A stretch of 64,000 bases of DNA from Porphyra umbilicalis (lineage: Eukaryota; Rhodophyta; Bangiophyceae; Bangiales; Bangiaceae): assembly GCA_002049455.2 (NCBI GenBank), contig KV918791.1:361830-425829 (forward strand), written 5' to 3'. Every line of letters starts with the position of its first letter. Positions within the stretch are counted from its first letter, which is position 1. Positions 7,106 through 24,417 of the stretch are shown piece after piece. The position numbers and the translations under genes were made by a program. Under the pieces are notes generated by a model that made no database searches, was not told where the DNA came from, and worked only from the letters and a program-made list of their open reading frames with translations.

Positions 7106-7723
7106 GGTTGCGCTGCGTCCCACGAGGGGACGCCAGGTACAAAGCGCAGGGTAGAGTCACAGTGGGTGCCTTGCACAAGGCGATGCGGGGAAAAGGAGGA
7201 GAGTCACAGCACTGCCCAAGGTCGAGGCGGGCCCGACGCCGGTGCCGCTCCGAGCAAGGCGGTCGCGGTGGGGGGGCGGCCGAGCGTGGGCGGAGGGCAT
7301 CGCCGTGTGGATGAGGGTGATGGGGCTGTTGATTGGACAAAAAATGTAATTATATGGCTGCACAAGGTACAAAAATGTGTTTGATGAGATAGGCAATTGA
7401 CTTGCTCAAGAAGTGAAATCAGGTGTACTTGGAAAGTTGGGGTCGTGGGAGCGACCTGACAGGATCTCAGGTGACCCATTGGCATTAGAGCTTCTCCGCA
7501 CCGCTGCTTGCCCACATCGTGTAGCCACCTTTGCTCCACCGTCGGTACACTACCGTGCTCCTTTGCTTGTCGTCACCCACTTGCCCTTTTCCAGCCTCCC
7601 GCTGAACCGCCCCCTCCTCGATTCCTCGGTTCATTCTTGGACATTTTCTCTGTCTACCCACCACCTCGGCTTCTTGGTTGGCATCACCTTCTCGTGCGGC
7701 GGCGGTCCGGGCCGGCCTGCACC
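7106..7723. other. Intergenic region between divergent COX5B copy 2 and fibrillin
   Basis: This holds the upstream regions of COX5B copy 2 (-) and the fibrillin gene (+). A locally AT-rich stretch, aaaaaatgtaattatatgg, lies near 7340. No gene seen. Confidence 0.45.
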
Positions 7724-8509
7724 ATGCCGCGCTCATCGCCACAGGCTGCTGCCTTTTCCCCCTCCACCCCTACTCTCCCCTTCCAGCGTCGCATCCCTGG
7801 ATGTCAATACACTGGACGGCGTGCGGCTCCCTCCCCCGGCACCCCCTCCCCGCCCCTCCGCCGGGCGCTGCTGCGGGCGTCTGCGCCACCACCCGCCGCT
7901 GCCGCCCCCCCCGTGCCTGACGCCCGCGCCGAGCTCCTCCGCTTGGTCACCCCCCCCGCCGGCGGCCGCGGACGGGCACTCCCGTCCGACACGCAGGAGC
8001 GGGTGGCGGCGCTGGTGGCGGGCCTCGAGGCGGCGGCACCTCCCCCCGGCGGCACCGCCTTCCTACCCGCCATTGCTGGGCGCTGGACGCTGCTGTACAC
8101 CAGCCGCCCGCCGAGCGCGTCCCCCATCCAGCGGGCGGTGACGGGCGTCGGCTCCCTGGACGTAGTGCAGGAGCTGACCTTTGACGGTGGCGCCGCCGAG
8201 GCGTCGACGGGGCGCTTGCGCAACGAAGTGCGCTGGCCGGGCGGCGTCTTGTACGTGTGCGCCGCGATTACGGGCGTGGAGGATGGGCGGTTGGCGATTG
8301 CGTTTGATGAAGCGTGGGCGGATGTGTCCCTGCCGTGGGGCGACAAGACCGTGCGGGTGCCCTACCCGGTGCCCTTCAAGCTGCTCGGCAGCATCGCCAG
8401 GGGGTGGTTGGACGTGACCCACGTGGGGGGTGGGGTGCGCATCTGCAGGGGCAACAAGGGCAGCGCGTTTGTGCTCGTGCGGGAAGGGTTGGATGAGGGC
8501 GGCGCGTGA
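7724..8509 (+). CDS. Plastid-lipid-associated protein / fibrillin (PAP) family
   Basis: A 261-residue protein. Residues about 1-65 are rich in Ser, Pro, Arg and Ala and fit a plastid transit peptide. The PAP/fibrillin domain follows: AGRWTLLYTSRP, then VQELTFDGG, RLRNEVRWPGG, PFKLLGSIARGWLDVTHVGG and a C-terminal ICRGNKGSAFVLVRE, the last being the most conserved fibrillin signature. Fibrillins are lipocalin-like proteins of thylakoids and plastoglobules that bind lipids or quinones; which subgroup this belongs to cannot be told. The start is the ATG at 7724 in accatgc context, the first in the frame. The gene is one exon. The long upstream open frame in the same phase lacks family similarity and is taken as UTR. 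Confidence 0.87.
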   Translation: MPRSSPQAAAFSPSTPTLPFQRRIPGCQYTGRRAAPSPGTPSPPLRRALLRASAPPPAAAAPPVPDARAELLRLVTPPAGGRGRALPSDTQERVAALVAGLEAAAPPPGGTAFLPAIAGRWTLLYTSRPPSASPIQRAVTGVGSLDVVQELTFDGGAAEASTGRLRNEVRWPGGVLYVCAAITGVEDGRLAIAFDEAWADVSLPWGDKTVRVPYPVPFKLLGSIARGWLDVTHVGGGVRICRGNKGSAFVLVREGLDEGGA

Positions 8510-8966
8510 AGCGCGTCATGCGGCAGCACCTTGGTCATATGCTCTGCTTGCGCCGGCGCAGTAACTTGGGTGGCGTTTGCTGGTGTCACCTATTGCGTTG
8601 CTTGTCATGATGCTTGCTCGCGCGATGAGGAAACTTCTGCTGATGGCTAAGGACCACAAGCGACCTTGGGTCTTTCGAATCTGAAGCGCACGCAGCGCTG
8701 CTGAACGCCACCAGCTTGCTGTGGAGCGTCGATTGTTGCTCCGCGAGTTAGCGATACAGAGCATCGTCGCCTCTTGCCTTCCTCTCATTCCAACATAGAG
8801 GCAGCTACCAGCAGCCCTTCGTGGAAGGTGCGTAACGGCCGCCTGCTCAGATCACGGTGGCTCGCACTTGTAGAACCGTGATCCAAGTTGTGCGATCAAT
8901 TATTGCCAGTCGCGTCTATCCAGCGCGTCGACGACGACCGCGACCGTTGACCAACAGGGCCGTGCG
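8510..8966. other. Intergenic region before the large transposon
   Basis: Downstream region of the fibrillin gene with no gene seen. GC content drops compared with the gene. Confidence 0.45.
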
Positions 8967-8979
8967 GTAAGGTTGGCAT
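8967..8979 (+). repeat. Left candidate terminal inverted repeat
   Basis: gtaaggttggcat, followed inward by taccga, taccaat and taccgat motifs up to about 9055. Its reverse complement is at 21889-21901. Confidence 0.5.
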
Positions 8980-9252
8980 TTACCGAACGTTGGGATTCTG
9001 GACACCGTTTCCCGATCGATATACCAATTTGCAGATTTCGTACCGATATCTTGGTGTCTTAAGTCTTGTAACAAATCGATTTTTGGAATGTGTAGTTGCA
9101 GCACTCTCGCGTTCGCACCCTCTCGCAGACTGCAACGGCCACCACATGACCCGACCGTATTAACTGCTCACCTCCGCACTCCACCCAACCTGCGCCACGA
9201 CCTCGACCGTGCCTGACCTGGGTTAGCTTGGACCCATCCCTTCGCCCCCCCG

Positions 9253-9430
9253 TCAATCATTCTCCTGCATGCCAAGCCACGCCCTTTTTTCCTCAAGCAT
9301 CAATGCACACATATTGATAGCAAACTGCTCGCCCACTCTGCTGCCAACAATATAACGCAAAGGAAACACGGTGGCGCGGAAGTTGCGCAACCGCCACACT
9401 ACCTTTTGGAGATACCCAAGGACGTCATGA
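9253..9430 (-). pseudogene. C-terminal remnant of an unrecognised reading frame
   Basis: On the minus strand the frame ending at 9253 reads protein-like over about 58 residues, for example HDVLGYLQKVVWRLRNFRAT followed by AINMCALMLEEKRAWLGMQE. The composition differs from the Arg/Pro-rich noise around it. It resembles the tail of a transposase or other mobile-element protein, but no family could be assigned and upstream sequence does not continue it convincingly. Confidence 0.25.
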
Positions 9431-10557
9431 GATGGCAGTGGGCACGCTTGCTCGGGCAGAGCGGGCCAGCTGGACTGGCGCGGGAGGGCCTGTATGCCAG
9501 ACACGGCTGCCTTGTGCGCTCAATATTGTATTTATCGCCGCTAGTTTGCTGGTCTGTCTGGTCGGTGACCAAGATATTGTGAGTCTTTCAAGTGCCGCGC
9601 TCGTTGTGTGGCGAGGCAGGAAGACACCCTCCGAGTCTGATAGAAACCGACTCACTCCAACTGCAGCGCCATGCACCATTCGGGGCCCTCCTTACAGCCC
9701 CACGGGGCATATAATTCCTTCCACATCGATCTCGAATGATCACCCGCGGCCCGATATTCGATTGCGGGCCCAGCTGAACTGTTCGACAACCTGTCTGGTT
9801 CCAGTCGGGCCCGAGGCCATTCCGCTGGGGCCCAACAGTGTCTGGCGGGCTGTGTGGGGCGATTCGAAGCGTACCCCTCAATGGTCAGATACTGCCCGGA
9901 TATTGCAGATATTGCTGTTTGTTTCGTCGGCCAGCGATCCTCAGGCCCGCGCACCCGCCCCTAGTGGCGTTCTGCGGCGGGCTGCATTGCCGTCAGGAGA
10001 TATTGTCGGCTAATACTCGTGGCTCAATCAGCGGGCTCGTTGGACCACTGATTCGGTCCCTCAATAGAGGACGTCACGGGCGCCTGCCACCCTGCCCGGC
10101 GTCCTCGCCCACCTGTGCTGACGCCGCTTGGCGGGCCACTGCTGGGCGCACCACGCGGGGTGCCTCTGGCCACCAGTCTCCGTTCCGCCACCCACCCCCC
10201 CGATCCATGCCGTGAGGGGGTGTGTCGGTCGCCTGCCAGCCGTGGGCGCCATATCCCATCAGGTGGCTCCTGCTGTGCCCCCTGGGGGGGGGGGGGGGGG
10301 ACACCCGCCACGGGTGCCCCAACAATGCAACCGTGCGGCGGCGGTCGCACCGCTGCCTGTGCCCCTCCAGGGCGGGCAGGCAGCCGCCCCATCAGCAGGT
10401 GGCCGGCACGTCACCACCGTAGAGCTCGCATGTACCACAGGTTCCTGTGTCTGCGGATCTGTGCAGCCAGGGGGGCATCTCCGCAGCGGGCGGCCGGCGG
10501 CTAGCGGTTGACGCCGCCGTCGCCGCCCTTCATCGCCGCCTCGTATGCCTGCGCCTG

Positions 10558-11150
10558 GTGTGGATTAGTGTGAGGGCGGGGGAGCGGGGGGCGGCTCGTG
10601 TGGGTGGCGGTTCTCGCTGCGGCGGGCGGCGTTGGCGCCGGCGGCATGCGGACGCCGTCGCCGTCGCCGTCGCCGTCGTCCGCTGTCCTCGTCTACGCCG
10701 GCGGCCGGTGCGCAGTGGTGTGGGGGCGGGGGCGGCTGGGGTGGCTCGTGTGGGAGGTGGCTCTCGCGGCGGCGGGCGGCATTGGCGCTGGCGGCTCGCG
10801 GGCGCTGTCGCTGTCGCCGTAGGTCGCTGTCGCCGCCTACACCTGCTGCTGCCGGTGCGGAGTGGTGTGGGAGCGGGGGAGGGGGGGGCGGCTTGTGTGA
10901 GGCGTTGCACTAGTTGCGTCAGGCGATTGGCGGCATTGGCGTCGGCGGCACGCGGTTACTGCCACGGTCGCCGCCGGTTGCCGCCGCCGTGCGCGCCTGC
11001 CGGTGCGGATTGGTGTGGATTCGGGGGAGTTGGGTGAGGCTCCTGTTGGTGGCGCCTGTCGCGGCGGCGGGCGACGTCGGCGCTGGTGGCACGCGTTCGT
11101 TTCTCTTGTCGGCAGAGCGGTACGCGGCGTTGGTCTACGTCGTCACGTCG
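10558..11150. repeat. Minisatellite, about 148-bp unit, four degenerate copies
   Basis: Units start near 10558, 10708, 10855 and 11003. Each begins gtgcggagtggtgtgg or close to it, then passes through ggctcgtgtggg and ends with a ggcattggcgctggcggc-type core and a cacgcgg block. The array lies directly upstream of, and partly within, the open frame of the transposase. Confidence 0.75.
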
Positions 11151-11171
11151 TCTCGCTCATGTGCGGGTGCT

Positions 11172-14100
11172 ATGCCTGACTCCTGCCGTCACCCGTCGCC
11201 GTGCCAGAGCAAGGATGGCTCGGCGGGCGGCGACGACGCGCCGCCATTCTTTGCCCATCTCGGCGGGTCGGCCATCGGCGTCTACACGCCCCAAGATATG
11301 CTTGAGGCGCTGCTGCACCACCGCGGCTCGGGCGCGCGTGTGCGGGCCGGGCGACCACGACTGGCCGCTGGCATTGATGGTGGCAGGCGGGACGCGCTTC
11401 GTCCACCTGCTGCGGCGCCGCCACGGAGGGTAGACCACGACAAGCCTCTACCAGACGCATCTCTAGGCGCCAAGGGGCTTCTACAGAGGCCACTTCCGTT
11501 GGCCAAGGGGCAAGACTTCTCCATTGGAGCCCTCACCAACCACCTACAAGACGCCATCCTTGTTGGCCTCGGGTTGATTCCCCGCAGCATCCGCACGAGC
11601 GGTTCCAAGGCCGCCGTCGTGTGTCCGGTGTTTGGCGGCCGGGGGGTCTTCTACTCGCTCGGCATCGAGACGTTCGTGGTGTGGGCGTCCACCAAGGACG
11701 GCGTCGTGGCCTGCTACTGCTCATGTGGCGGAGACGACCTCAAGGAGAACGTTGGCGCTCGCGTGCGCTCGGGCGTTTCGTCGAGCTGCAGCCACGCCAT
11801 CGCCCACAGCCTCGCGCTTCGGGCCGTAGCGCTGCACTTGATGTGCACGTCCGTTCCCAACCTCTTGCGTCACAGACGCGCACTGGACGGGGCGCACGCG
11901 GTGTCCACGGACGTCGAGGCCGCGTTGGTTTTTGAGGATGACGGTGGCCGTGCCGCTCACGTGGTTTCCTACAACCGCATCATGTGTGTCGTACAGACCC
12001 CCCCAAGGATGGCCAAGCAAAGACGGCCAATCTGTCGGCACGTGCCGTGTCGGACAAGGAACGTCCACTGCGTCCACTCGCTCGCGGTGAGGCCGTCGGC
12101 GGCCGGATACGGTGGCTTTGATGACGATCCGGATGGCGCCGGTGAAGAAGACGGGGGGGCTGGTGAAGGCGAGGTCGGTGACGCGGCGGACGGCGCATTG
12201 GGCGACGACTTGGGTGAACAAGGTGGTGCTGGCGCGCAAGACGATCAAGGCCAAGCCCCCGCTGCTCCCCAACAGCAACAACGCCGGGCCCGTAACAAGA
12301 AGGGCGAGCCCCGTGTCTTTGCCGACACGGATTGCCTGCGGCGGGCGCGCAACATGCTGCCGTGCGCGACCGAGACGGCCAAGTGCGCTCGCTTTGACTC
12401 TATTGCGCGCGGCCAGACGCACCCGGACGTCAATGACGTGAAGCTTTTTGAGGAGTCTTGCATCCACTGCGGCCACGCCGTCGGGCAGCTTCTTTCGGGC
12501 GAGGCTGCCCAGCTGCACACGCTTAGTGGAAGGGTAGCGGTGGTCACGCATTCGGGGGTCTGCTCGAACAATGATTGCGGCAAGGTCGTGCCGTTTGACG
12601 GCGCACACCTCGGTCTGTTTCGCTTCTCCGCCAGGACGGTCTACACGCGCACCTTCTTGGACGTCATCCTCTTCACCATCATCTCCACCAAGAGTAGCAT
12701 CTCGGCCGCGTCGGCTACGTCGGCGTTCCAGCTCCACTGTACCGGGGCCATCTTCAATGGCGACTCAGCCAAGTCGCGACAGGATCTCGGCCGCGCCACG
12801 GACGAGTACTCAAGGACGCTCATCATCCCCCGGAACCTGTACAAGTGCTCTAACTGCTACAACTGCAGCCAGACGCCCTACTCTGCCGTTGTAGCCGATG
12901 GCCAGACGATCGGCATCTTCCGCGACGCCGCCTACCCGTTCGAGCGGACGACGCAGAACGTGCCGACCATCCCGATCTCCATCGACAATGCGTGTGCGGT
13001 GCCAAAGGCCAAGGTGCGCAAGTGAATCCGCCAGCGCATCAAGGCCGCCTTTGGCGAGGAGGTGTCCTACTCCAAGGCCGACCAACTGGCCATGTCCAAG
13101 TTTGCGGCTGCGAGCGGCACGATGCCGCCTCTAGGAGACCACAACAACGCGAGCCATCGCGCATCGGCGGCCGAGTGGGCAGCTTCCTGCTTTTGGAACT
13201 CATTCTTCCAAATGTCTGGCGTACCTAACGACCCGGACGGGGCTGCATCGCCGCCGGCTTCTGAGCCGCCAACCTCCCCTAAGACTGGCAAGCACCCCGC
13301 GTCACCGCTCACCCCCCACGTGCCGGCCAGCTCCCCACCACCACCCGTCGACGACGACGCGCCTGCCAACCAACAAGGGGGTGGTCCCGCGGCCGCCACC
13401 GCGCCGGCGCCGCCGCAGCACGCGGCGTTCAAGTACTGCAACGCTATCCCCGACGCCCTCGGCGGGGTTGGCCTCTTGCCGATCGTGCGGCGGGAGCGGT
13501 GGTCCATCGTGTACACCTTCCTCCGCACCTTTGTGTGCGAGCCGGTCATCGGGGTGTTTGCGGGCCTCCCGGTGGAGGACCTGACACGGCTGGCCGAGGC
13601 CCTGATTGACGGCAAGCTAGCCAGGGAGTGGATGCCGCTGGCTCATTGCGTGGAGTCCATCCACGTCTTGTGGCCGATGCTGGACCTGCTCTCCGACGAG
13701 ATGGACTCCGACCCCGAGATGTGCCGCGCGGTCGGGGAGCTCGTCATGTTCTCCCTCCACACCGACATTCACATGGAGAACCTGTGGCGCGCGGAGATGA
13801 ACGCGGACGCGCTGCTGTACGAGGAGGAGTGGACGGAAACAGACGCCGCCAAGTTCCAGTCGTGGCTGCAGCGGCAACCGCCGTGCCCCGGACGCCGGCC
13901 GTCCGGTTTGGTTGCCTGTGCGGCGTCGCGGCACCGCGCCGGCGCCCAAGCCGACGAGGTCCGGTCCGGGATTGTCTTCCCAGACTTAGACCAGGTGCGG
14001 GCGCACCCCTCCGACGCAGCAGCCGCCGCGGCCGCCAGCGCCGCGAGGGAGAAGGCGCGGCTCAACCCGAAGAGGACGTCCAAGTGGAAGCGGGCGGACA

Positions 14101-14708
14101 TGGATGACGCGAGGCTAGGTGATGACGATTGCCGTCATGCATTCTTGACTCACTCTGCTTTCACTCCAGGTGTGGTTTCTTATCTTTGTTCTTGTGGGAT
14201 ATTGATTGGTTTTGAGGTGCTTGAGAGTGCGGAGAGCCCGGCTGGCATTGTCGCTGCCTTGACTGCACGATTCCCTCGTCTCCCCACCACCGTCTACTTT
14301 GACACTGCGTGTCAAGCGGGTCGCAACGCCACGCGTCGCGTGCCGTGGCTCGTGCGCATCTCCAAGACGTCGTGGGCTCTTGACCGCTTCCACGCCTCTG
14401 CGCACAAGTGCTCTCCCCTTTTTGACTCCAACAACTACCCCGAGCGCTGCGGCATGCACAAGACGTCGGCCGCTGAGAACCGACACTCGCTCAACAAGCC
14501 GCTCAAGAACCACCTGACCTACCTCGGGCAGGACAGGTTCGTTGTGCAGATGCGGTTGATAGGTGCCATCAACAACCTCCTTATCTTTTATCGTCGAGCC
14601 ATTGGGCGGTCCGACGTCCGACACCGCCCCTTGCCTCTCTTTTTCCACGCTTTGATTGCTTCTGTTTGTGAGCGGTCGGGGTGTGGGTGTAGAAACATAG
14701 AACAATGA
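11172..14708 (+). pseudogene. KDZ-type transposase with CxC cysteine clusters, interrupted by one in-frame TGA
   Basis: The frame from the ATG at 11172 is open to a TGA at 13023-13025. It then continues in the same phase, without shift, to 14708: about 1,178 codons in all. N-terminal cysteine clusters (CYCSCGG with SSSCSHAIAHSLAL; then ESCIHCGH and NNDCGK) resemble the SWIM-like or CxC modules of KDZ transposases. The core shows VVADGQTIGIF (first acidic residue, codon 12897), GVVSYLCSCGILIGFEVLES, TTVYFDTACQ (second acidic residue, codon 14301), WALDRFHASAHKCSP and TSAAENRHSLN (candidate Glu, codon 14475). These fit the KDZ RNase H-like core. Pro/Ala-rich linkers separate the blocks. Apart from the TGA, the protein looks undamaged. 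Upstream sequence is open to 10914 but is minisatellite-derived. Family assignment is from motif recognition only. Confidence 0.72.
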
Positions 14709-17151
14709 TGCTCCTTATTTTTTCCTAGCACTCTTTGAGTCGGGTGCGCTCAGTCCAACAGGGTGCGTATGTTACGCTCAGTCCAACTTGGTGCTTTCTC
14801 CCACAGACTCTCGAGCACGGTCGCAAAGGTTGTCTGACGTCCCTATCGTTACTACCTTTGCTTGGCCGCATTTCAGCTGCACCGATGATGGTACCATCCG
14901 TCGAGTTCACGGCACCAGACTGGAACCACAGTTTTCTATGCCAGGAGGTTAAACGAGCTGGCCTCGATGCATGGCGGGGGGGGGGATGTAGGTCGGGAGG
15001 GCTGGCTCGCTTGCGCGGCTGGCGCGGCGGCGCAACTGTTCTCCTGCAGGCCTCCTGGCTGTTGTGCTATTGTCACAATGACGGCTCTGGTGGCTATACA
15101 GGCCAACACCGCCGTCAGAAAAATAAACAGCCAGCAGCAGCGAGGAGACGGTTCCATAGGTCAACCACGAGCGCGGCTGCGACTTGGCGGCGGGCGCAGG
15201 GCACTCAGAAGCCCGCATGGCGATGAAGAGCAGCCGTTAACCAGCCGGCCTAGAAACCCCGAGTAACCAGAGTTAGAGCACGCGGAGGGCTACTTGGCAC
15301 TGCAACCATCAATCGCCTAACTACGGAGACCTATCCGGTAAAGAAGGACACCCCGATGACGGTGAAGTATCCAGACTAATAGAAGCCACTAGATGTAAAC
15401 AAGACGCGACGGCCATGCCGTGTGGAATCATGGGGTGGCGACGCTATGTCACAGCTACAGGGCGAGTGCCTGTGGGGTGCTCTAGTTATTTTACATGTGA
15501 AGAACTCGAACGATGAGGGCTGCCGCTGGGCTCTTGGTCACAGTAGATGAGGCATGTTCCATAGCGTGATGCTGCTGCTGAGCGAGTTTGCAAAGGGTCT
15601 CTATGGCTTCACCGATGTGCCCCAGCAGCACAGTACACATGTCCATGAATGTACCCGTTCGCCACATGGTCCCTTCTGGACACAATGCGAAGCGCTGTCA
15701 CACGTGCACGCGTTTCCAACTGATTGCTGTTTTCTCAGAGAAGAGACTGCGGGCACGCCAAACAGCCGGTGATGTTGTGGACATTCCTCAAGGACTGAAG
15801 AAGACTGATTATCGACTCTTCAGCAGTCCGGGCATGCAGCACCATTATCTGTGTGATGTTGTACCGATGCAAGTCATCGAGTTCGAATGTGGCCTCCAAA
15901 CGCATCCCTCTTGACAATGGGATGGTATGCAGGAAGGGCGACATTGTCACGGAGCAGAAAAGCATTCCTGCTAAAGGGTGTACGCCGTGGTCTCACTACC
16001 GCAGCACTAGTCTCAAACAAAAGCTACTCCCATATGAAACGATTGGCGTAGCTCCACTTCCGGGCTGCGCGCCACATGACATTGGTGCGACGGGGACTAT
16101 TGCAGGTACGCGGTGCCCATGGTCAGAGCGGCGATCTGGTGATGACTGCCGCGAAACAGGACTCCCAGCAGCAGCCCTTCACTCGCCTTCGGTCATGCGA
16201 CGAGCGCATCGACCTGCGGTGGGTCTGGGCCGACCTATGTCCTCAGCATTCTGGGTCATGGCGGGCAAGACCGCTCTCTGAGGGGCGATACGCCGTGCTG
16301 ATCTTCCCTGAGGACTGATTCATGCAGGCAGGTCGCAGCCTTGTTATGTTAGTATGAGGACACTGACAGCGTCTACTTAATATGGATTGGTGTTGTCGCA
16401 ATTTGCAGGCACACTTTGGGTATCATCACAAATGTGTATGTGGCCCCCCATTGGTGTACTCGTGTCCACTTTAGTTAGCTGCTGCTTGTCAGTCCGTTCC
16501 ACTGATAAGGAGAGGAGCTCGAGGATGGTCCGTAAGGGGGGGGTAAACGACTCTGTTGAACGCCTTCCGCGGCATCAGCCACGGTAGTCACTCGGTGCGC
16601 ACCTGCGCGCGTCGCGAGCGACCTCGCCTGTGCGTGCACTTCCCGCCGCCTCTCCACCACCTTCCCCACCTCCACGGTAGCGGGGGGTGGGGAGGGGTTG
16701 CTGTTCTTGGTGGCACAGCACGCCAACGTCGCCTGGTACGCACGGCGGGGACGGGGGAGGGACCACGCCCGGCAGTGACGGACAACTGCCGCGTCGGAAC
16801 CTCTGTTTTCTGCCACCTCCCGGAACGTTCCGGCAGCGGGACACCTCGCTGCCGCTATAGGGCTGCGGGATTCTTGGTGGCCGCCAGGACACTGGCTGCT
16901 GGCAGGCTGGCGTCGAGCCACCGGTGAGGGGTTCGTCCCCTGTTTTTTTCAGCCTCTTGTCGAGACGTCCATGCTCGGCTGCTCGTTGGTCAGCACCGCG
17001 GTAGGGAGCAGTGCGGGAGAGAGAGAGTCGTCCGTCCGAGGGAAGCATACTAAATTGTAGTGCCTCCTGTTTTCTTAAAGGTGCTGGCCGCGACGATGGT
17101 GTTAGCTTTTTGGATAGCTTTGCAGTAAAGGACGGGCCGTGGTGCTCCTGT
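14709..17151. other. Transposon interior between transposase and protease genes
   Basis: About 2.4 kb between two convergent genes. The part from about 15,240 to 16,500 is clearly less GC-rich than the rest of the window. No intact gene is recognised; a possible decayed frame on the minus strand is listed separately. Confidence 0.45.
15491..15965 (-). pseudogene. Possible decayed gene in a low-GC island
   Basis: Two minus-strand open stretches, in different phases, have protein-like composition: 15965-15735 (SRGMRLEATFELDDLHRYNI) and 15685-15491 (LGHIGEAIETLCKLAQQQHH). Their order fits one gene with a frameshift or intron between them. No family was recognised, and chance open frames cannot be ruled out. 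Confidence 0.22.
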
Positions 17152-20100
17152 TTATGTCTTATGACTCTTGTTGTGTTCAATGGCTCGAGCTGCACTCTCA
17201 AAAACCACGGCTTGTTCGTCCTGCTTTCTCCCGTCTCTAACCACTGCCGCCACCATACTCATACGCAAAGCAAATGCATCACACGCAAGCACTTTAGAAC
17301 CGACAGCATGCGCCTGGTGCCAGAGAAACGAGAAAGCAAACGGACCGCAGCTGGTGTTGTCTGTTTGTGCGGGCACCTTAATCCTTCGGGTGCTCCACGG
17401 CTTTGGCCTCTTGGCAGCCCTTGCTGGCTTGACGGCAGCTATGCTGCTAGAATCGCCGGCGCCTTTGGCCCCTTCGGCACCCTTCGCGACATACTCCCCC
17501 TTGCCCACGTCCGCACCTTTGGAATCGCCGGCGCTCTTGGCCGCGGCCGCCTCCTTGGCATCGTTGGCCAATTCGCCGCCTTTGGTCATATCGTCGCCCT
17601 TGTCCACTTCGGACACTTTGGCCACGTCGGCGACCTTGGCAACGGTGCCGTCCTTGGACACGTCGGCCTCTTTGACCAAATAAGTGCCGTCGGCCACGTG
17701 GGCGCCTTCGGCGCTCGTGGCCGCGGCTGTGCTCTTGTCCGCCCCTGCAGCCTTTCGCGACCCGCCCCCCTCAACGTTGTTGGCCCCCTCTTTCACCGCC
17801 AAAAGGGTACTGGCCGACTTGACGTACTGGTCAGGCCTTGTTGCCACGGCCGCCTTAGGCGCCTCGGCCACCAAGATGGCGTGCTTGGCCTCGTCGGCCT
17901 CCTCGTTCTCTATGATGAGGTCGCGCAAGCACTTGCCAAAAAGCTGCATCTTCTTCCCCGCCGCCGTCACGTCCTTCTGCAGGTCCTGGAAGTGGGCGCC
18001 CGAGTCGTAGATCGTCACGACCTTCTCGGCGGTGTTCACGTTCACCCCCAATGCGATCCAGTGCACGTTCTTGATGTTGCACACGCCCATCAGCCTTGTC
18101 GCGCCAGCCGCAGCAGCGTGCACCGTCACGGCCATGGCCGCGATGCCGTCCTCGTTCTCCGACAGCAGCTCCATGAAGAACGAGCAGTGAAGGACCCAAA
18201 AGTCGGGGCGGTTGACCACGCACCAGCGCGCCAAGATGATCGTGTTCACGGAGATGATGTCGTCGGTCATGCACACGTCCTGCGCGTTCTTGACCAGCAG
18301 GTAGGCGGGTATGATGACGTCTTGCTCAGCACCTACGGCGTCGGCAGATGTGAGCCGCCAGACCGTGGCCGTTGGATGACAAAACTCGACGGCTGCAACG
18401 ACCTCGGTGGCCAACACGCCGTTGGATGCGCGGCCGGCGCCTGAAAAGTCAGGTACTCGGGCGTTCGTGTAGCCCGCCGCGACGCGGAGCCACTCGACGG
18501 CCGCCCGAAAGACTTGCACGCGTAGCGACGCCGTGTGAAAGTCCGACATGGCCTGCAGCGTGGACGCCGTCAGGTTGATCGCGTCGGCGGTGCCCCGCGC
18601 CGCCACATGCACGTACACACGGCACGTCTGCTCGTCCAGCTCGACGTCGTTACCACCGCGCAGCTCATCCGCCTTGGCCATGAGCTCCCTCCGCGCGTGC
18701 CGCACAGTCGCTTCCTCCAGGACAGCCATCACGTCCTTCTGCGTGTCCACGACAGAACCCCACTCATCCGAGCTGGCGACCTTGACGTCAATCGCTGGTT
18801 GGTGAGCGTCAGTCTCAAGCGGCGGCCAGTTGGTGGCCAGGGAGTGGTAGGTGTGGTCCTTGAGCATGTCCGCCTCGACCAGCACGGCGCAGCTCTGCAC
18901 CTCCTCCGCTGGCTTGAGGTCTGGCTCGTGGAACTCCGACGCCAACGCCTCGCTGCGAGACGCCAGCGCTGCCTCCCCGCGGAGGCGCTTCCTAGGTGTG
19001 GCATCGGCCGCGGCGCCGCTGCTCCTCTTCATGGTGCGCGTCGCAGACCGCTGCGCCTTCTTGGCGGCCTCGGCCTGCTGGTGAGCCGCCTGTGCTCGTT
19101 GACTGGCGAGGCCGGCGGCGCGGCGGGCAGCCAGCCTGGTCGCAACCGCTGCGTTGATGCCGGGCGCCTGGCCGATCCCTTGCTGCGACGTTGCAGCAGA
19201 CGCGTCCGACTGCGGCACGGATGTAGGTGTCGAAGCGTCGCCGAGAGGAGCACCTCCAATCCCCCCGCGCGCGAGCACTTCTGCAATCGTCAACGACGCT
19301 AGCGCATCGGCCGCGATGGGCGACTTCTTCTCCTTGCGCGTTACGCCGTGCTCCGCCAGCTTCTTGTCAATAACCGCCGCCACGATCGACCGCTCCTTGT
19401 CGTAGAGCAGCAGCAGTGTCGCCACAACATCGGCTATGACGGGCACTCCCGCAGGGCTCACCTCTGCCAGGGTAATGTGGACCACCTCCTCCACGTTGCC
19501 AACGTCGCGCCGCCTCTCGCCTGTTGGCAGGTGGCGGCGCTGCACCTCGACGGGGTACGGCTGCGGTAACAAACGGTCGCCTGCTCGGCCGCGCCGCCCC
19601 CTCCTGCTCGTTGACATCCCCACCTCCGCCGTGAGGTTGCGGCTGCTCTTGACCAGCGGCCACCACACGAGCAAGCCTTGTAGCCCTGCCTTGCTTTGTA
19701 GTCCACGAAAGGCAACGAGAGCGAGGAGCACCGCCGCCAGCGTCGCGCGCAGGATTCCCACCCAGCCGCCCTTGACAGCTGTGAACAGGTCCTCAACTGC
19801 ATCATTGGCGTCGGTGGAAGGGGCATGCACGGGGGGTGGAGAAAACCCGACACCTGCAGTGATCAAGGCTCCGGCCGCCATGCCGTCGGTTGCCGTCGGA
19901 GAAGGCGGCGCGCTAGCGACGGAGGGGATGAGGTTGCCGTCCTCGTCCCACTCCTCCGCCTCGGCATCCACCTCACCCTCCGCCCCTGGTGGCACCCAGT
20001 CGCGCACAAGATGCCCGTGGTAGAGCTGGCTTGTCTTGTGGGGGGGCTTGGACCCGCCGGCACTTGGAGGAGCAGCAGATGGCGGCTGATCGTCGGCGCT

Positions 20101-20634
20101 CCGCGGAGGTGCGCCCCCGTCCGGTGCAGTCGGCACGGCACCCGCCACCGCGGCTCCTGCGCCATCGTCCACATGAAGAGGAGCTTGGGGATGGCCGCTC
20201 GTACGTGAAGGTCCGAGAGTAGAGTCCTCTTTGTCATTTTCAGGCACCGGAGCAGCCTGGACGAGAAGGTGAGCGTGGGGAGGGTGCGACAGGCGCACCA
20301 AGGAGTTGCGGAAGAGCGCGGATGTCATCACCATCGACTCCTGGCTGTGCAGGTGCGTGTACATCGTCTTGAGGACGCGCTTGGCTTGGTCGCACGCCAA
20401 GACGGCGGCGTCGTAGACGACCACAAAGAAGGTGTCGCCGGTCGTCCGCGACACGCCCGACACGTGGAAGTGGCAGGAGAGCTGCGGGCAGCGGACCTCG
20501 AGCTGGTGCAACAGCTTGAAGAGGTCCGACACAATGTCGGCCACGTCGTCCTTGAGCGCCGACACGCCGAGCAAAACCTTGATCAGCTCCCGCAGCTGCT
20601 CCATCTGCTCGTTGTCCTCCGCCGCTTGGCCCAT
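17152..20634 (-). CDS. Ulp1/SENP-like (C48) cysteine peptidase carried by the KDZ element
   Basis: A 1,160-residue protein from the first ATG of the frame. The C-terminal third carries a complete Ulp1-type active site: His858 in IKNVHWIALGV, Asp877 in TIYDSGAHFQ, Gln1090 and Cys1096 in QTDNTSCGPFAF. The Asp and Cys are separated by ~220 residues. This spacer includes a hydrophilic pseudo-repeat (units like KGADVGKGEYVAKGAEGAKG) not usual in the family. The N-terminal ~850 residues are unrecognised: a helical start (EQLRELIKVLLGVSALKDDV), Pro/Ala-rich linkers, one hydrophobic stretch (GILRATLAAVLLALVAF) that may cross a membrane, and a basic KR-rich segment. Ulp1 enzymes cleave SUMO or related modifiers. 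In transposons the role is inferred as removing SUMO from host or transposase proteins. The frame is uninterrupted. Confidence 0.78.
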   Translation of the reverse strand: MGQAAEDNEQMEQLRELIKVLLGVSALKDDVADIVSDLFKLLHQLEVRCPQLSCHFHVSGVSRTTGDTFFVVVYDAAVLACDQAKRVLKTMYTHLHSQESMVMTSALFRNSLVRLSHPPHAHLLVQAAPVPENDKEDSTLGPSRTSGHPQAPLHVDDGAGAAVAGAVPTAPDGGAPPRSADDQPPSAAPPSAGGSKPPHKTSQLYHGHLVRDWVPPGAEGEVDAEAEEWDEDGNLIPSVASAPPSPTATDGMAAGALITAGVGFSPPPVHAPSTDANDAVEDLFTAVKGGWVGILRATLAAVLLALVAFRGLQSKAGLQGLLVWWPLVKSSRNLTAEVGMSTSRRGRRGRAGDRLLPQPYPVEVQRRHLPTGERRRDVGNVEEVVHITLAEVSPAGVPVIADVVATLLLLYDKERSIVAAVIDKKLAEHGVTRKEKKSPIAADALASLTIAEVLARGGIGGAPLGDASTPTSVPQSDASAATSQQGIGQAPGINAAVATRLAARRAAGLASQRAQAAHQQAEAAKKAQRSATRTMKRSSGAAADATPRKRLRGEAALASRSEALASEFHEPDLKPAEEVQSCAVLVEADMLKDHTYHSLATNWPPLETDAHQPAIDVKVASSDEWGSVVDTQKDVMAVLEEATVRHARRELMAKADELRGGNDVELDEQTCRVYVHVAARGTADAINLTASTLQAMSDFHTASLRVQVFRAAVEWLRVAAGYTNARVPDFSGAGRASNGVLATEVVAAVEFCHPTATVWRLTSADAVGAEQDVIIPAYLLVKNAQDVCMTDDIISVNTIILARWCVVNRPDFWVLHCSFFMELLSENEDGIAAMAVTVHAAAAGATRLMGVCNIKNVHWIALGVNVNTAEKVVTIYDSGAHFQDLQKDVTAAGKKMQLFGKCLRDLIIENEEADEAKHAILVAEAPKAAVATRPDQYVKSASTLLAVKEGANNVEGGGSRKAAGADKSTAAATSAEGAHVADGTYLVKEADVSKDGTVAKVADVAKVSEVDKGDDMTKGGELANDAKEAAAAKSAGDSKGADVGKGEYVAKGAEGAKGAGDSSSIAAVKPARAAKRPKPWSTRRIKVPAQTDNTSCGPFAFSFLWHQAHAVGSKVLACDAFALRMSMVAAVVRDGRKQDEQAVVFESAARAIEHNKSHKT
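17434..17720 (-). repeat. In-frame degenerate repeats inside the C48 peptidase
   Basis: About eight imperfect 10-12-codon units of Lys-Gly-x-Asp/Glu-Val-Ala type lie between the catalytic Asp and Cys. The plus strand reads as repeated ttggccacgtcggcgacctt-like units. They insert a long charged loop into the peptidase fold. Confidence 0.6.
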
Positions 20635-21002
20635 GTCGGGCGACAACAGGCTCCACTGCCCCCCCCCGATCCCCCTCCCCCCCAACTCGCAGCGCCGAGA
20701 CGGCGCCGCCCCTCACCGCCGATGGCAGCTGTAGGTGCCGCCGCCTCCCCCCCGGTCCGCCCGGCGCCCCACCGGCAGCCCCGGGACAAGAACGCGCCCC
20801 GTTGCCACCGACAGCGGCAAGAGCACCCCTCAGCATGCGGTTCTCAACCCACCCACCCACACGTCCTCACCAGCATCTGCGGCAGGCCAGCAAAGGTAGG
20901 GTGGCGACGCATTCGAATGCGCGGCGCTGGCAAGCGCCACCGCCGCGTCCCCAACGGCACGTGGTGGTGCGCAGTCCCGCGGAGAGTGGCGATGGGCAGG
21001 CT

Positions 21003-21353
21003 CGACGACGCGGCCGCGGTGACACGGTGGCGGCAATAGGTGGCACGCGCCCCCCCAGCGGCGGCGACGACAGCGCCGCCCCCCGCCCCGGGGGCAGCGG
21101 TACGCAGCCTCCCCCCCTCGAGGAAGCGGCCGCGGCGACACCGTGGCGGCAATAGGCGGTACGCGCCCCCGCAGTGGCGGCGGCGACAGCCCCGCCCCCC
21201 CCCCCACGGGGGCAGCTGTACGCAGCCCCCCCCCCTCGACGACGCGGCCGCGGGGATACCGTGTCGGCGACAGGCGGTACGCGCCCCCCCAATGGCGGCG
21301 GCGACAGCCGCGTCACCCCCCCCGGTGGCAGCGGTACGCAGCCCCCGGGGGGG
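21003..21353. repeat. Minisatellite, about 117-bp unit, three copies
   Basis: Units start at 21003, 21119 and 21237. Each contains gcggccgcggcgacaccgtg, a ggcaataggcggtacgcgcc-type block, a C-rich run and ggggcagcggtacgcagcc. It lies near the right end of the KDZ element. Confidence 0.85.
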
Positions 21354-21888
21354 CCGCCATGACTGCCCCCCCCAACAGTGGCCATGAGCAGCCGTCGGGG
21401 TGGCGGAAGCGCCGTCAACCGCGTCGAACCGCCACAGAACAGCCGCACGATCACGGGTATGGAGGGCTGACAAGCGAGCCACCCCCCCCCGAACGGCCGC
21501 GGCCAGAGCCCCATGAGGGACCTGCGCACCGTCGTGCAGATCGCGATCTGCCCCGCAAGCGGACCCCGGCGAATGTCGAGGTGGCGGATTCGCCGACCCC
21601 AGTGGCCGACCCCTGGCCCCGGACCGGGCCGATAGCAGCCAGCCCGGCCGCAGGCCGGGCCCGGGCCCGTCCCAGAGCGCTTCGTTTGCGTTTTGGTTGA
21701 GTCCGAGTCTATCGGATTCACGGCGTCTCTTCCTGCACGTGTGTGGCATCGGTCGAGTTCTCCGAGGGTTACCTACTCACATAAGTACCATACCGCCATG
21801 TACCGACCGTTGAGCGAATGGTCAATACCGATCATCGATCTGGATACCGATCCTTACCAATTTTTTTTTTACCGACCAAAATTACCGA

Positions 21889-21901
21889 TATGCCAACCTT
21901 A
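21889..21901 (-). repeat. Right candidate terminal inverted repeat
   Basis: atgccaaccttac, the reverse complement of 8967-8979. Immediately inside it (21785-21885) lie at least five taccgat, taccga or taccaat motifs. Confidence 0.5.
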
Positions 21902-22132
21902 CGTGCAGCGCTCTGGGGTTTCCTCCTCGACGGCGTCACGTCAACAAACCCTGAACACCGTTGCCAGAGGCACAGCATTTGCTCTTCCTCTGCCCCTCGT
22001 TTGCTGCGACCCCTTGGTGCCCCCCGTGTTGGCCCTGCGGCTGGCGTTGCTTCTCATCCGGGGTCCTATCCGCCCCACCTCCGGCTTCCGCATTGTACCT
22101 TTCCCGCCTCCCCCCCCCCCCCCCCCCCGACG

Positions 22133-24417
22133 ATGGGCCGCAAAGCTGGAAAACCCGGCGCTGGCGCGGATGGGGCCATGGGCGGCCTCGGCCGGGCGCT
22201 CGCCAAAAAATCCAAGGCCAACGCCGTCGCCTCGCGCCGCACCGAAGCCGACGTTGGCCGCCACGCCGAAGCCGCCACGGACCCGACGCTCAAGTCCGTG
22301 TTGGAAGCGTCTGACTTGAGCGAGCTAATGGAAACGGCCGCCCTCTCCAACACCTCCTTTGTCGCCGACCGCTACGCGCCGCGGGACGTGGCGCAGTCGG
22401 TCGTCATTACGCCCGGCGCGTCGGGCATGGTCGACGCCGACGCTGCCGTTGGCGGCGTGCGGCGACCCAACGACGCAGCGACGCGGGCGGTGGAGGCGGC
22501 GGCGCTGCGCGTGCCGCGGCGGCCGCCGTGGACGGCGGCGATGGACAAGGGCGCCCTCGACCGGTCCGAGCGGGCGGCCTTTCTGGCGTGGCGCCGCTCC
22601 CTCGCCGCCGTGGAAGAGGAGCTGGCGGGCGACGCGCCGCCCGCCGCGCCGGGCGTGCGCCGCGGCCCGCGCGACGCCGTCGACGGGGCGGTGTTTGCAC
22701 GCACGACGCTGACTCCGTTTGAGAAGAACCTCCAAGTGTGGCGGCAGCTGTGGCGGGTCGTCGAGCGGTCGGATGTGGTGGTGCAAATTGTCGACGCGCG
22801 GGACCCAGAGCTCTACTACTGCGCCGACTTGGACCGGTATGTCGTTGACGAGAGTGGCAAGCGGAGTTTGTTGTTGCTCAACAAGGCGGATTTGCTGAGC
22901 GAGGGGATGCGCACCCGGTGGGCGGCGCACTTTCGGTCGCGCGGCATGCGCGCCGTTTTTTTTTCGGCCAAGCCAAACGGGCGGGACGGCGAAGGCGCCG
23001 AGGAGTCCTCCTCGGACGAGGATGACGATGACACGACGTCGGACGAATCGGGCATTGATTCGGATGAGGAGAAGGAGGAGGAAGAGGAGGAGGAGGGGGC
23101 GTCTGATGAGGCTGGCGAGGAGGATGCGTCGCACGTGGCAGAGGACGATGTGATGGCCGACGGAGAGGCGGCCGCGACCACCACTGGGAGTGCTGCCGAC
23201 GCTTCCCCAGTGGCCCCGCCGGCTGTGCCCGGCGCGGGCGCGACGACTGTGCCAGCGGCGGCGACTGCAGACGCCCCGTCGCCACCACCGGTGGATGCAT
23301 CCGCCCCTTCATCCCCCCAACCGCAGCCGGCAAGGGCAGAGACGAGGCGCCCATCCCCGCTGGCGACGGCGGCACCCCCCCAACCCCCCCCCCCAACGAC
23401 GCCGACGTGCTCGACGCGGTCGCCCTGACCGCCCTCTTTGAGTCCCTCCGCCCGCCCGGCGCCGACCACCTTGTCGTTGGCATGGTCGGCTACCCCAACG
23501 TTGGCAAATCGTCCACCACCAACGTCCTCCTCGCGCACACGCCCAAGCGCGTCGGCGTGTCGGCGACGCCCGGCAAAACCAAACACTTTCAAACCATGCC
23601 CCTGTCGCCAACCCTAACGCTCTGCGATTGTCCCGGGTTGGTCTTTCCCAACTTTTCCGCCTCCAAGGCGGACCTCGTCGTTGCCGGCGTCTTGCCCATT
23701 GACCAACTGCGCGGCAGCGCGACGGCGCCGATTAGCCTCATTGCCGCGCGGGTGCCGGCGCGGCTCCTCCGCGCGCTCTATGGCGTCCGCCTGCCGGCCG
23801 TCACCGAGGTGCCCGTCGTCGGGGGCGACGGCGAGCCGACGGGTGCGGTTGTTGCCTACACGTCGGCGCCCGAGCTGCTCGCCGCCCACGCGACCGCTCG
23901 GGGGATGATGCGGGACCACGGGCGGCCCGACGTGCAGCGGTCGGCGCGGCTCATCCTCAAGGACTTTGTCAGCGGACGCCTGCGGTACGTGCACCCGCCG
24001 CCGCCGGCCGACGGCGACGCGGCGGTGGCGGCGGCGGCGGCGGCGGGGACGTCGACAGTCGCCGAAGGGGAAGCCGGCCTCGACGAGGCGGCGGCGGCAA
24101 AGATGGCCGCCCACGCGTCCCGCCTCGACGAGGCGGCGGCGGCGGCGGAGTTGGCCGCCGCCCGCACCATGATCCGCCGGCGGGAGGAGGCGGAAGCCGC
24201 CGCCCTGGCCGCCTCGGAGCGCACCAAGGCGCACGTGCGGGGCGCGGGGGGGCGCCACAAGCGGGGCAAGGCGGGCGCCAAGGCGGCGCCCCGGGCGGCG
24301 CCGCTGCCGGGCATGGGGGGAGGGGTGCCGAGCGCCGCGGGGGGGGGGGCCTACACGCGCGTCGCGCGGCCGTTCCTGCCCGCGCCCAAACGTGAGTTTG
24401 GCCTGGAGCGGCCGTAG
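22133..24417 (+). CDS. LSG1: LSG1-like circularly permuted GTPase (60S ribosome export/maturation)
   Basis: The ATG at 22133 starts MGRKAGK, followed by the LSG1 N-terminal block LGRALAKKSK, a RVPRRPPW segment and TPFEKNLQVWRQLWRVVERS. The GTPase motifs come in permuted order: G4 LLLNKADLL, a G5-like FFSAKPNG, then G1 GYPNVGKSS, G2 ATPGKTKHFQT and G3 LCDCPGLVFP, with GVLPIDQLRG after them. A strongly acidic Ser/Glu/Asp insert lies between the two halves, as in eukaryotic LSG1. The C-terminus is basic (HKRGKAGAKA). LSG1 releases NMD3 from cytoplasmic 60S subunits. The phase changes between the acidic linker (frame ending at 23428) and the G1 half (frame open from before 23360). The switch lies in a Pro-rich stretch with runs of 7 and 11 C, so it is either a short intron or a homopolymer length error or mutation. 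Confidence 0.85.

Follow-up and report, generated by a model that had tools for sequence, protein, structure and literature searches.

A KDZ-superfamily transposon family with a separate, convergent Ulp1-like peptidase gene in a red-algal genome

The KDZ superfamily of DNA transposons is composed of Kyakuja, Dileera and Zisupton. Zisupton and a Dileera element have 8-bp duplications, and Kyakuja has 7-bp duplications, CA..TG ends and no terminal inverted repeats (TIRs), according to the available part of PMC12730594. The same excerpt describes KDZ elements that carry TET/JBP dioxygenases, which are interpreted as a means of escape from silencing by methylation. Algal KDZ elements, as in Ectocarpus and Chlamydomonas, are often large (excerpts of PMC12477816 and PMC8226300). 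The giant families of Ectocarpus carry additional genes and nested insertions and reach 30.3 kb (PMC12477816, in part). Ulp1-type peptidase domains of family C48 occur in Ginger1 (at the C-terminus of the transposase), in Mutator-like elements and in some Cryptons, and a role in transposition via the small ubiquitin-like modifier (SUMO) or ubiquitin pathways has been proposed (parts of PMC2836005 and PMC3212892). Here, we describe a 64,000-nucleotide stretch of DNA, called the window, in which a KDZ-type transposase gene and an Ulp1-like peptidase gene lie together. Positions 9613-21739 are read as a KDZ-superfamily cut-and-paste DNA transposon, inserted in an older repeat of ~800 bp. For this explanation, including the roles of the two genes, we put the probability at roughly three in four.

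The first-pass annotation had proposed a KDZ-superfamily transposase and an Ulp1-type peptidase in one DNA transposon, and this is supported. The ends that it gave, 8967 and 21901 for an element of ~13 kb, do not hold. Inverted repeats with taccgat-like motifs exist there as described, but they are 12 rather than 13 bases long (TAAGGTTGGCAT, at 8968 and 21901, with subterminal TACCGA(T) motifs) and are the ends of the ~800-bp repeat. The genome searched was the window's own (83.8 Mb in 665 contigs, to which numbers beginning with C refer), and the counts for the 8967-21901 stretch rest on the best 39 of 137 candidates. Its left part (query 1-646) matches at least 32 other places, and its right part (query ~12774-12935) matches 22 of these. 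The two parts adjoin at 19 of the 22 (at 17 of these they overlap by 7-9 bases), and the stretch is therefore an ~800-bp repeat interrupted by 12.1 kb of inserted DNA. The 19 empty sites lie in further copies of the repeat and do not represent the window locus in a second genome. At the remaining three places (C19, C49 and C185), the parts are 365-787 bases apart.

A transposon made up of the whole ~13-kb unit would explain the inverted 12-base repeats, their subterminal motifs and a 7-base flanking repeat with one mismatch. However, ends of this type enclose merely ~800 bp at the 19 other places, and seven other family members end as at 9613 and 21739. Among the candidates scored (39 of 137), the 12,935-bp unit has no other complete copy in the genome. 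The larger unit is almost certainly not the transposon; nested insertion can give a transposon false ends, as it did here. The 12,127-bp element at 9613-21739 is flanked on both sides by a perfect 8-bp duplication. Its ends were placed by comparison with copies of the ~800-bp repeat that have no insertion and with a relative on C222, which is alike along the full length, with gaps. The features of the insertion are as follows.

9613-21739, + strand: complete KDZ-superfamily transposon with both genes (empty repeat copies, C222, exact ends and duplication)
9605-9612, strand not applicable: left copy of the 8-bp target-site duplication TGTGTGGC (end comparison)
21740-21747, strand not applicable: right copy of the 8-bp target-site duplication TGTGTGGC (end comparison)
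9613-9657, + strand: left TIR, ~45 bp, imperfect, begins GAGG (score 16, against at most 11 for 500 random pairs drawn from the element)
21695-21739, - strand: right TIR, imperfect (TIR scoring)
8968-9612, + strand: left part of the older ~800-bp repeat, including the left duplication copy; outside the KDZ element (genome comparison)
21748-21901, + strand: right part of the older ~800-bp repeat (genome comparison)

The ~800-bp repeat itself resembles a non-autonomous element flanked by a 7-bp duplication. Among six copies compared, this duplication is perfect in L004 and L008, has one mismatch in the window, L003 and L005 (6 of 7 bases), and is ambiguous in L006; the two-piece match L007 was excluded from the comparison.

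Two large convergent genes had been recognized from the open reading frames (ORFs) of the window, a transposase on the + strand and a protease on the - strand, and both are confirmed, as are the KDZ-like motifs, the cysteine clusters and the His-Asp-Gln-Cys set of a C48 peptidase. The + strand gene runs through two adjoining open stretches of the same frame (10914-13022 and 13026-14705) with a single TGA codon between them. It contains a CxC4 cysteine cluster followed by the motifs of an Asp-Asp-Glu (DDE) core.

11172-14708, + strand: transposase gene with CxC4 cluster and KDZ-like DDE core; Met start guessed; TGA at 13023-13025 (ORFs, alignments)
12447-12719, + strand: CxC4 cysteine cluster (PF18717, E 6.8e-5, 23.2 bits, below the 26.9 cut-off)
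12897-12899, + strand: putative first catalytic Asp, ADGQ motif (role proposed from the alignment)
14301-14303, + strand: putative second catalytic Asp, YFDTACQ motif (invariant in a 12-sequence alignment, from which its role is proposed)
14475-14477, + strand: putative catalytic Glu, SAAEN motif (invariant in the same alignment; role likewise proposed)

The 12-sequence alignment (A4) came from 15 aligned rows, of which L036, L033 and L040 were removed; the first Asp is nearly invariant in it. A genome-wide search with CxC4 matched 21 places, including all eight members of the close family; seven members score above the cut-off and the window below it. The second half of the window transposase has no Pfam match. 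Comparison of the + strand protein with KDZ profiles, proposed in the first-pass annotation, thus gave a divided result: the KDZ core model PF18758 does not match, but CxC4 matches below threshold and a profile-profile comparison shows kinship. In hhalign, an alignment of three family transposases (A1) matched one of six PF18758-positive ORFs of the same genome (A2) with probability 100, E 6.3e-49, over 669 columns at 24% identity. A2 took six of the eight PF18758-positive loci then available, and two short-frame loci were left out. An intermediate is found at C145:2954-6034, whose transposase is 36% identical to those of the window family and contains a PF18758 match (C145:5579-5833, E 0.0019, 18.4 bits, below the 26.6 cut-off). 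At the sequence level, kinship of the + strand gene with KDZ transposases is established by CxC4 and, above all, by the profile-profile match; homology to the PF18758 core appears by profile comparison, not by the Pfam model itself.

Alternatively, the + strand gene could belong to a separate, unnamed transposase superfamily that shares only the cysteine cluster with KDZ, as the missing PF18758 match and the unconfirmed fold would allow. The alignment to PF18758-positive proteins extends beyond the cysteine cluster, however, and takes in all three putative catalytic motifs, and the TIRs and 8-bp duplications match those published for Zisupton and Dileera (PMC12730594, in part). A separate superfamily is thus very unlikely, and assignment to KDZ is preferred. 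With the transposase as query, the eight members are found at 55% identity or more, together with at least 28 further loci at 33-53% in the main rows (best 38 of 604 candidates scored; 44 rows merged to 36 loci). No match was found among PDB sequences with the transposase profile, and no viral relative in one scan of viral contigs with the transposase alignment.

The - strand gene lies in a single frame, 17155-20712, and is uninterrupted.

17152-20634, - strand: C48 (Ulp1-like) peptidase gene; first Met at 20634 guessed (single frame, Pfam)
18061-18063, - strand: putative catalytic His of the C48 domain (alignment of eight copies)
18004-18006, - strand: putative catalytic Asp of the C48 domain (alignment of eight copies)
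17365-17367, - strand: putative oxyanion-hole Gln of the C48 domain (alignment of eight copies)
17347-17349, - strand: putative catalytic Cys of the C48 domain (alignment of eight copies)

With PF02902, the C48 model (cut-off 20.7 bits), the peptidases of C28, C222 and the window reach 33.6, 30.1 and 24.6 bits, respectively; C117 reaches 11.5 bits and C4 has no match, the frames scanned in these two copies being single and broken. The His, Asp, Gln and Cys are kept in all eight copies, as read by tblastn, with broken copies read piecewise. In C4 and C117, pieces of the catalytic set stand in different frames, and C4 and C392 have two extra residues between Gln and Cys. The window Gln is 213 residues past the Asp because of an Ala/Lys-rich insertion, which is far longer in the window and C222 than in C28. 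The C28 peptidase frame encodes 927 amino acids (aa), with an N-terminus shorter than that of the window or C222. Its domain was modelled from a four-row alignment, with a mean predicted local distance difference test (pLDDT) of 62.3 and a predicted template modelling score (pTM) of 0.62. The best PDB match of this model in Foldseek is Ulp1 (2hl8), with E 1.8e-6, probability 1.00 and a query template modelling score (TM) of 0.47. Ulp1/SENP chains take ranks 1-10, and NEDD8 proteases and ubiquitin-acting enzymes of clan CE rank lower. By its profile, catalytic set and modelled fold, the predicted product of the - strand gene is a divergent C48 (clan CE) peptidase.

The close family has eight members including the window element, all in one genome, and all eight have perfect 8-bp duplications and carry both genes in the same convergent layout. 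Copies with ends other than 8967 and 21901, one of the outcomes that would have spoken against the first-pass annotation, do exist, but the genes are separated in none of the eight. The other seven members are listed here.

C222 member: 11,797 bp, duplication AGACACCC
C28 member: 11,187 bp, duplication ACGGCCAC
C419 member: 11,192 bp, duplication GGTGGGTC
C187 member: 11,188 bp, duplication CGCTGGCC
C117 member: 11,152 bp, duplication AAAGGTGG
C4 member: 11,901 bp, duplication CCACGTCG
C392 member: 8707-19996, 11,290 bp, duplication TGGAATAG

The end base is ambiguous by one base in C28, C419, C187 and C117 and was set so that all begin GAGG. In C4 and C392, the left end was chosen by likeness to the starts of other members, and the right end by eight matching bases and resemblance of the TIRs. 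When C392 was searched blindly for 8-base pairs, GC-rich chance pairs came out on top. TIRs were scored over 45 bp in four of the eight members (window 16, C222 19, C28 29, C117 22), and all four exceed every random pair (maxima 11-13, 500 pairs each). The C28, C419 and C187 members are 99.7% identical in pairwise comparison over 11.2 kb and lie at unrelated sites; therefore, the whole two-gene unit has moved recently. The C28 copy also has subterminal inverted repeats of ~650 bp inside its TIRs, 94% identical (L018 5175-5828 and the other end, L019). No such long inverted pair is present in the ends of the window element or C222. A search for shortened copies of the C28 subfamily with a 700-bp end query matched the three full copies, each also at its other end, and C117, but nothing else (all seven candidates scored).

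Long unbroken frames for both genes are found in C222, C28 and C419. The transposase frame is broken in four of the eight members, with one TGA each in the window and C392 and two frames each in C187 and C117. A Cys stands at the position of the window TGA in C222 and C28; the TGA of C392 is elsewhere, where C4 has Cys. Both TGAs are taken as ordinary nonsense changes rather than selenocysteine codons, no search for a SECIS element having been made. Because a stop codon interrupts its transposase, the window copy probably no longer moves by its own transposase.

The two genes appear closely linked. The C28 peptidase query finds exactly the eight close-family loci and no others at E 1e-5 (all 44 candidates scored). 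Ratios of nonsynonymous to synonymous substitution (dN/dS; NG86, all aligned codons) are 0.18-0.33 for the transposase and 0.31-0.50 for the peptidase, with five pairs each. The annotated frame has the lowest ratio of the six frames in all five pairs; the next lowest, 0.33-0.55, is the antisense frame that shares third positions. At the level of codon comparison, these ratios show past purifying selection on both genes, with synonymous divergence (dS) near saturation. The peptidase could instead be an accidental passenger with no function in the life cycle of the element: its evolution is faster than that of the transposase, C4, C117 and C392 have broken peptidase frames, and at 17 of the 36 transposase loci no peptidase was detected nearby. 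Against this stand its presence in all eight close relatives in the same layout, the catalytic set kept in each, a dN/dS below 1, and transposase frames that are broken about equally often (4/8). In addition, C48 adjoins KDZ-type transposases in two further arrangements in the same genome. A functionless passenger is unlikely on this balance.

These further arrangements extend beyond the close family. PF02902 matches at 128 places in the genome and PF18758 at 34. At 25 of the 34 PF18758 matches, a C48 match lies within 10 kb, in every case on the same strand and no more than 2.4 kb downstream, and the other nine have none; ~3% of random sites are expected to have a C48 match within 10 kb. At 16 of the 34 sites, the KDZ core and C48 have the same reported ORF length and, on coordinate evidence, are taken as one ORF. 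Contigs C356, C145, C162, C223 and others show apparent KDZ-Ulp1 fusion proteins by this measure. At L027, both families match in one partial frame, each below its own cut-off. Among the 36 transposase loci, C48 is upstream of the core on the same strand at 11, downstream on the opposite strand at four, and absent by PF02902 at 21; four of these 21 (window, C4, C392 and C117) do carry C48, as found with the C28 peptidase query. Among the 21 CxC4 matches, C48 is opposite and downstream at seven, downstream on the same strand at four, and absent at 10, four of which are again the window, C4, C392 and C117. CxC4 matches on C47, C18 and C157 have an opposite-strand C48 5-6 kb downstream, and these are perhaps more distant members with the layout of the window family.

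An embedded case is found on C56 (L040, C56:204401-210100), where CxC4 (25.0 bits, below cut-off), the first-Asp motif and a strong C48 match (PF02902, E 1.8e-22) share one ORF, and the second half of the DDE core is in a separate ORF ~1.2 kb downstream. The peptidase seems to sit inside a transposase gene. C48 thus seems to occur in three arrangements: downstream of the core on the same strand, in many cases within a single ORF; embedded between the CxC4 region and the core; and in a convergent gene of its own. We tentatively propose, as possible but short of probable, that a clan CE peptidase belongs to the permanent machinery of KDZ transposition in this red-algal lineage and is not cargo. 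If true, removal of SUMO or a like modifier would be needed for KDZ mobility, and the elements would have repeatedly repackaged the peptidase activity.

Several observations weigh against reading 9613-21739 as a KDZ transposon with these two gene roles. PF18758 has no match to the window, C222, C28 or C4 proteins in the Pfam scan, none of its 34 genome matches falls in the eight members, and the whole C222, C28 and C4 proteins score 24.1-26.0 with CxC4, under the 26.9 cut-off. The transposase model is poor (pTM 0.47), with low confidence across much of the core; it has no PDB structural match below E 5 and so does not confirm an RNase H fold. The ten best structural matches of the C48 domain, which is divergent, show 11-16% identity and a query TM of 0.41-0.49. 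Block means of pLDDT are 69-91 in the His/Asp half of this domain and only 59-73 near the Gln and Cys, and a peptidase profile search of PDB sequences found no chain. The fold does not discriminate between SUMO, NEDD8 and ubiquitin as substrates. Both genes have broken frames among the eight members, the peptidase in three (C4, C117 and C392) and the transposase in four (window, C392, C187 and C117), and dS, at 0.93-1.40, is near saturation. Finally, a distant relative on C122 has no PF02902 match within 10 kb and no ORF longer than 341 aa in the next 6.9 kb; therefore, not every related element needs C48.

If the reading of a two-gene KDZ transposon is correct, the + strand gene would encode a DDE transposase with a zinc cluster, which would bind the ends, cut the element out and integrate it at a cut staggered by 8 bp. 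The - strand gene would encode a cysteine peptidase of clan CE (Ulp1/SENP-like), whose most likely activity would be the removal of SUMO, or of a modifier related to it, from either the transposase itself or host factors of chromatin or repair. Removal of the modifier may allow the element to evade silencing, or its gaps to be repaired. A role of SUMO in the interaction with the host, as the first-pass annotation had suggested, is an inference. The target of the peptidase might also be ubiquitin or NEDD8, for example to shield the transposase from degradation. Clan CE folds include deNEDDylases and deubiquitinases, and such chains are listed among the PDB matches, but below Ulp1/SENP; the ten best are all Ulp1 or SENP, which at 11-16% identity is weak evidence. 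Such a target is rather improbable.

The host genome has a SUMO-like exon on C156 (L044), recognized by its likeness to SUMO sequence; most of the 19 PF11976 matches are ubiquitin-like units spaced 228 bp apart. Phycobilisome linker domains at 12 places, four on C665 and eight on seven other contigs, together with the GC content of the window (65.6%), fit a red-algal host, perhaps a bangiophyte. Two sets of GC-rich direct repeats lie in the subterminal regions of the element.

10504-11098, + strand: left subterminal direct repeats of 150 bp, three reported copies, 64-74% alike (repeat family D1)
20963-21314, + strand: right subterminal direct repeats of ~118 bp, three copies (repeat family D2)

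The left neighbour of the nested insertion is a PAP_fibrillin gene at 7475-8509 (PF04755, E 5.2e-19). Its right neighbour is an ORF at 21785-23428, for which Pfam gives only a weak Nop14 match; it has G-protein-like motifs reminiscent of an Lsg1-type GTPase.

The first-pass annotation had treated Ulp1 passengers as already known in KDZ/Zisupton elements, and this is not confirmed in the open literature. No KDZ-Ulp1 link was found there, in a search outside of which lie the founding KDZ papers and Repbase. No such link appears in the searched passages of PMC12062965, PMC12477816, PMC5718144 and PMC7599744, and neither Ulp1 nor SUMO occurs in the main text of PMC12477816. We describe the KDZ family with a separate, conserved Ulp1-like gene as a new variant and do not claim it as the first. 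That a KDZ family has retained an Ulp1-like protease over successive transpositions suggests another way around silencing, by SUMO-type modification. One genome seemingly holds the downstream, embedded and separate versions, which makes the use of the protease to the transposon directly testable.

The window family shares with the KDZ superfamily a CxC-type cluster, a DDE-like core homologous to PF18758, large size and an accessory gene, and its 8-bp duplications are as in Zisupton and a Dileera element (PMC12730594, in part). Its accessory gene differs, being an opposite-strand C48 peptidase and not a TET/JBP dioxygenase. Unlike Kyakuja, with 7-bp duplications, CA..TG ends and no TIRs, it has TIRs and 8-bp duplications (same excerpt). 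At 11-12 kb, its members are smaller than the Ectocarpus KDZ elements of up to 30.3 kb (PMC12477816, in part). With Ginger1, Mutator-like elements and Cryptons, it has in common a C48 peptidase family recruited by DNA transposons (excerpts of PMC2836005 and PMC3212892). Those elements have an integrase-like transposase, a Mutator-like transposase and a tyrosine recombinase, respectively, whereas the window family has a KDZ core and a separate, convergent peptidase gene. The KDZ elements on C356, C145 and C162 of the same genome likewise hold a KDZ core and C48 side by side, but their C48 is strong (up to 106 bits) and on the same strand, in contrast to the separate, divergent, opposite-strand gene of the window family.

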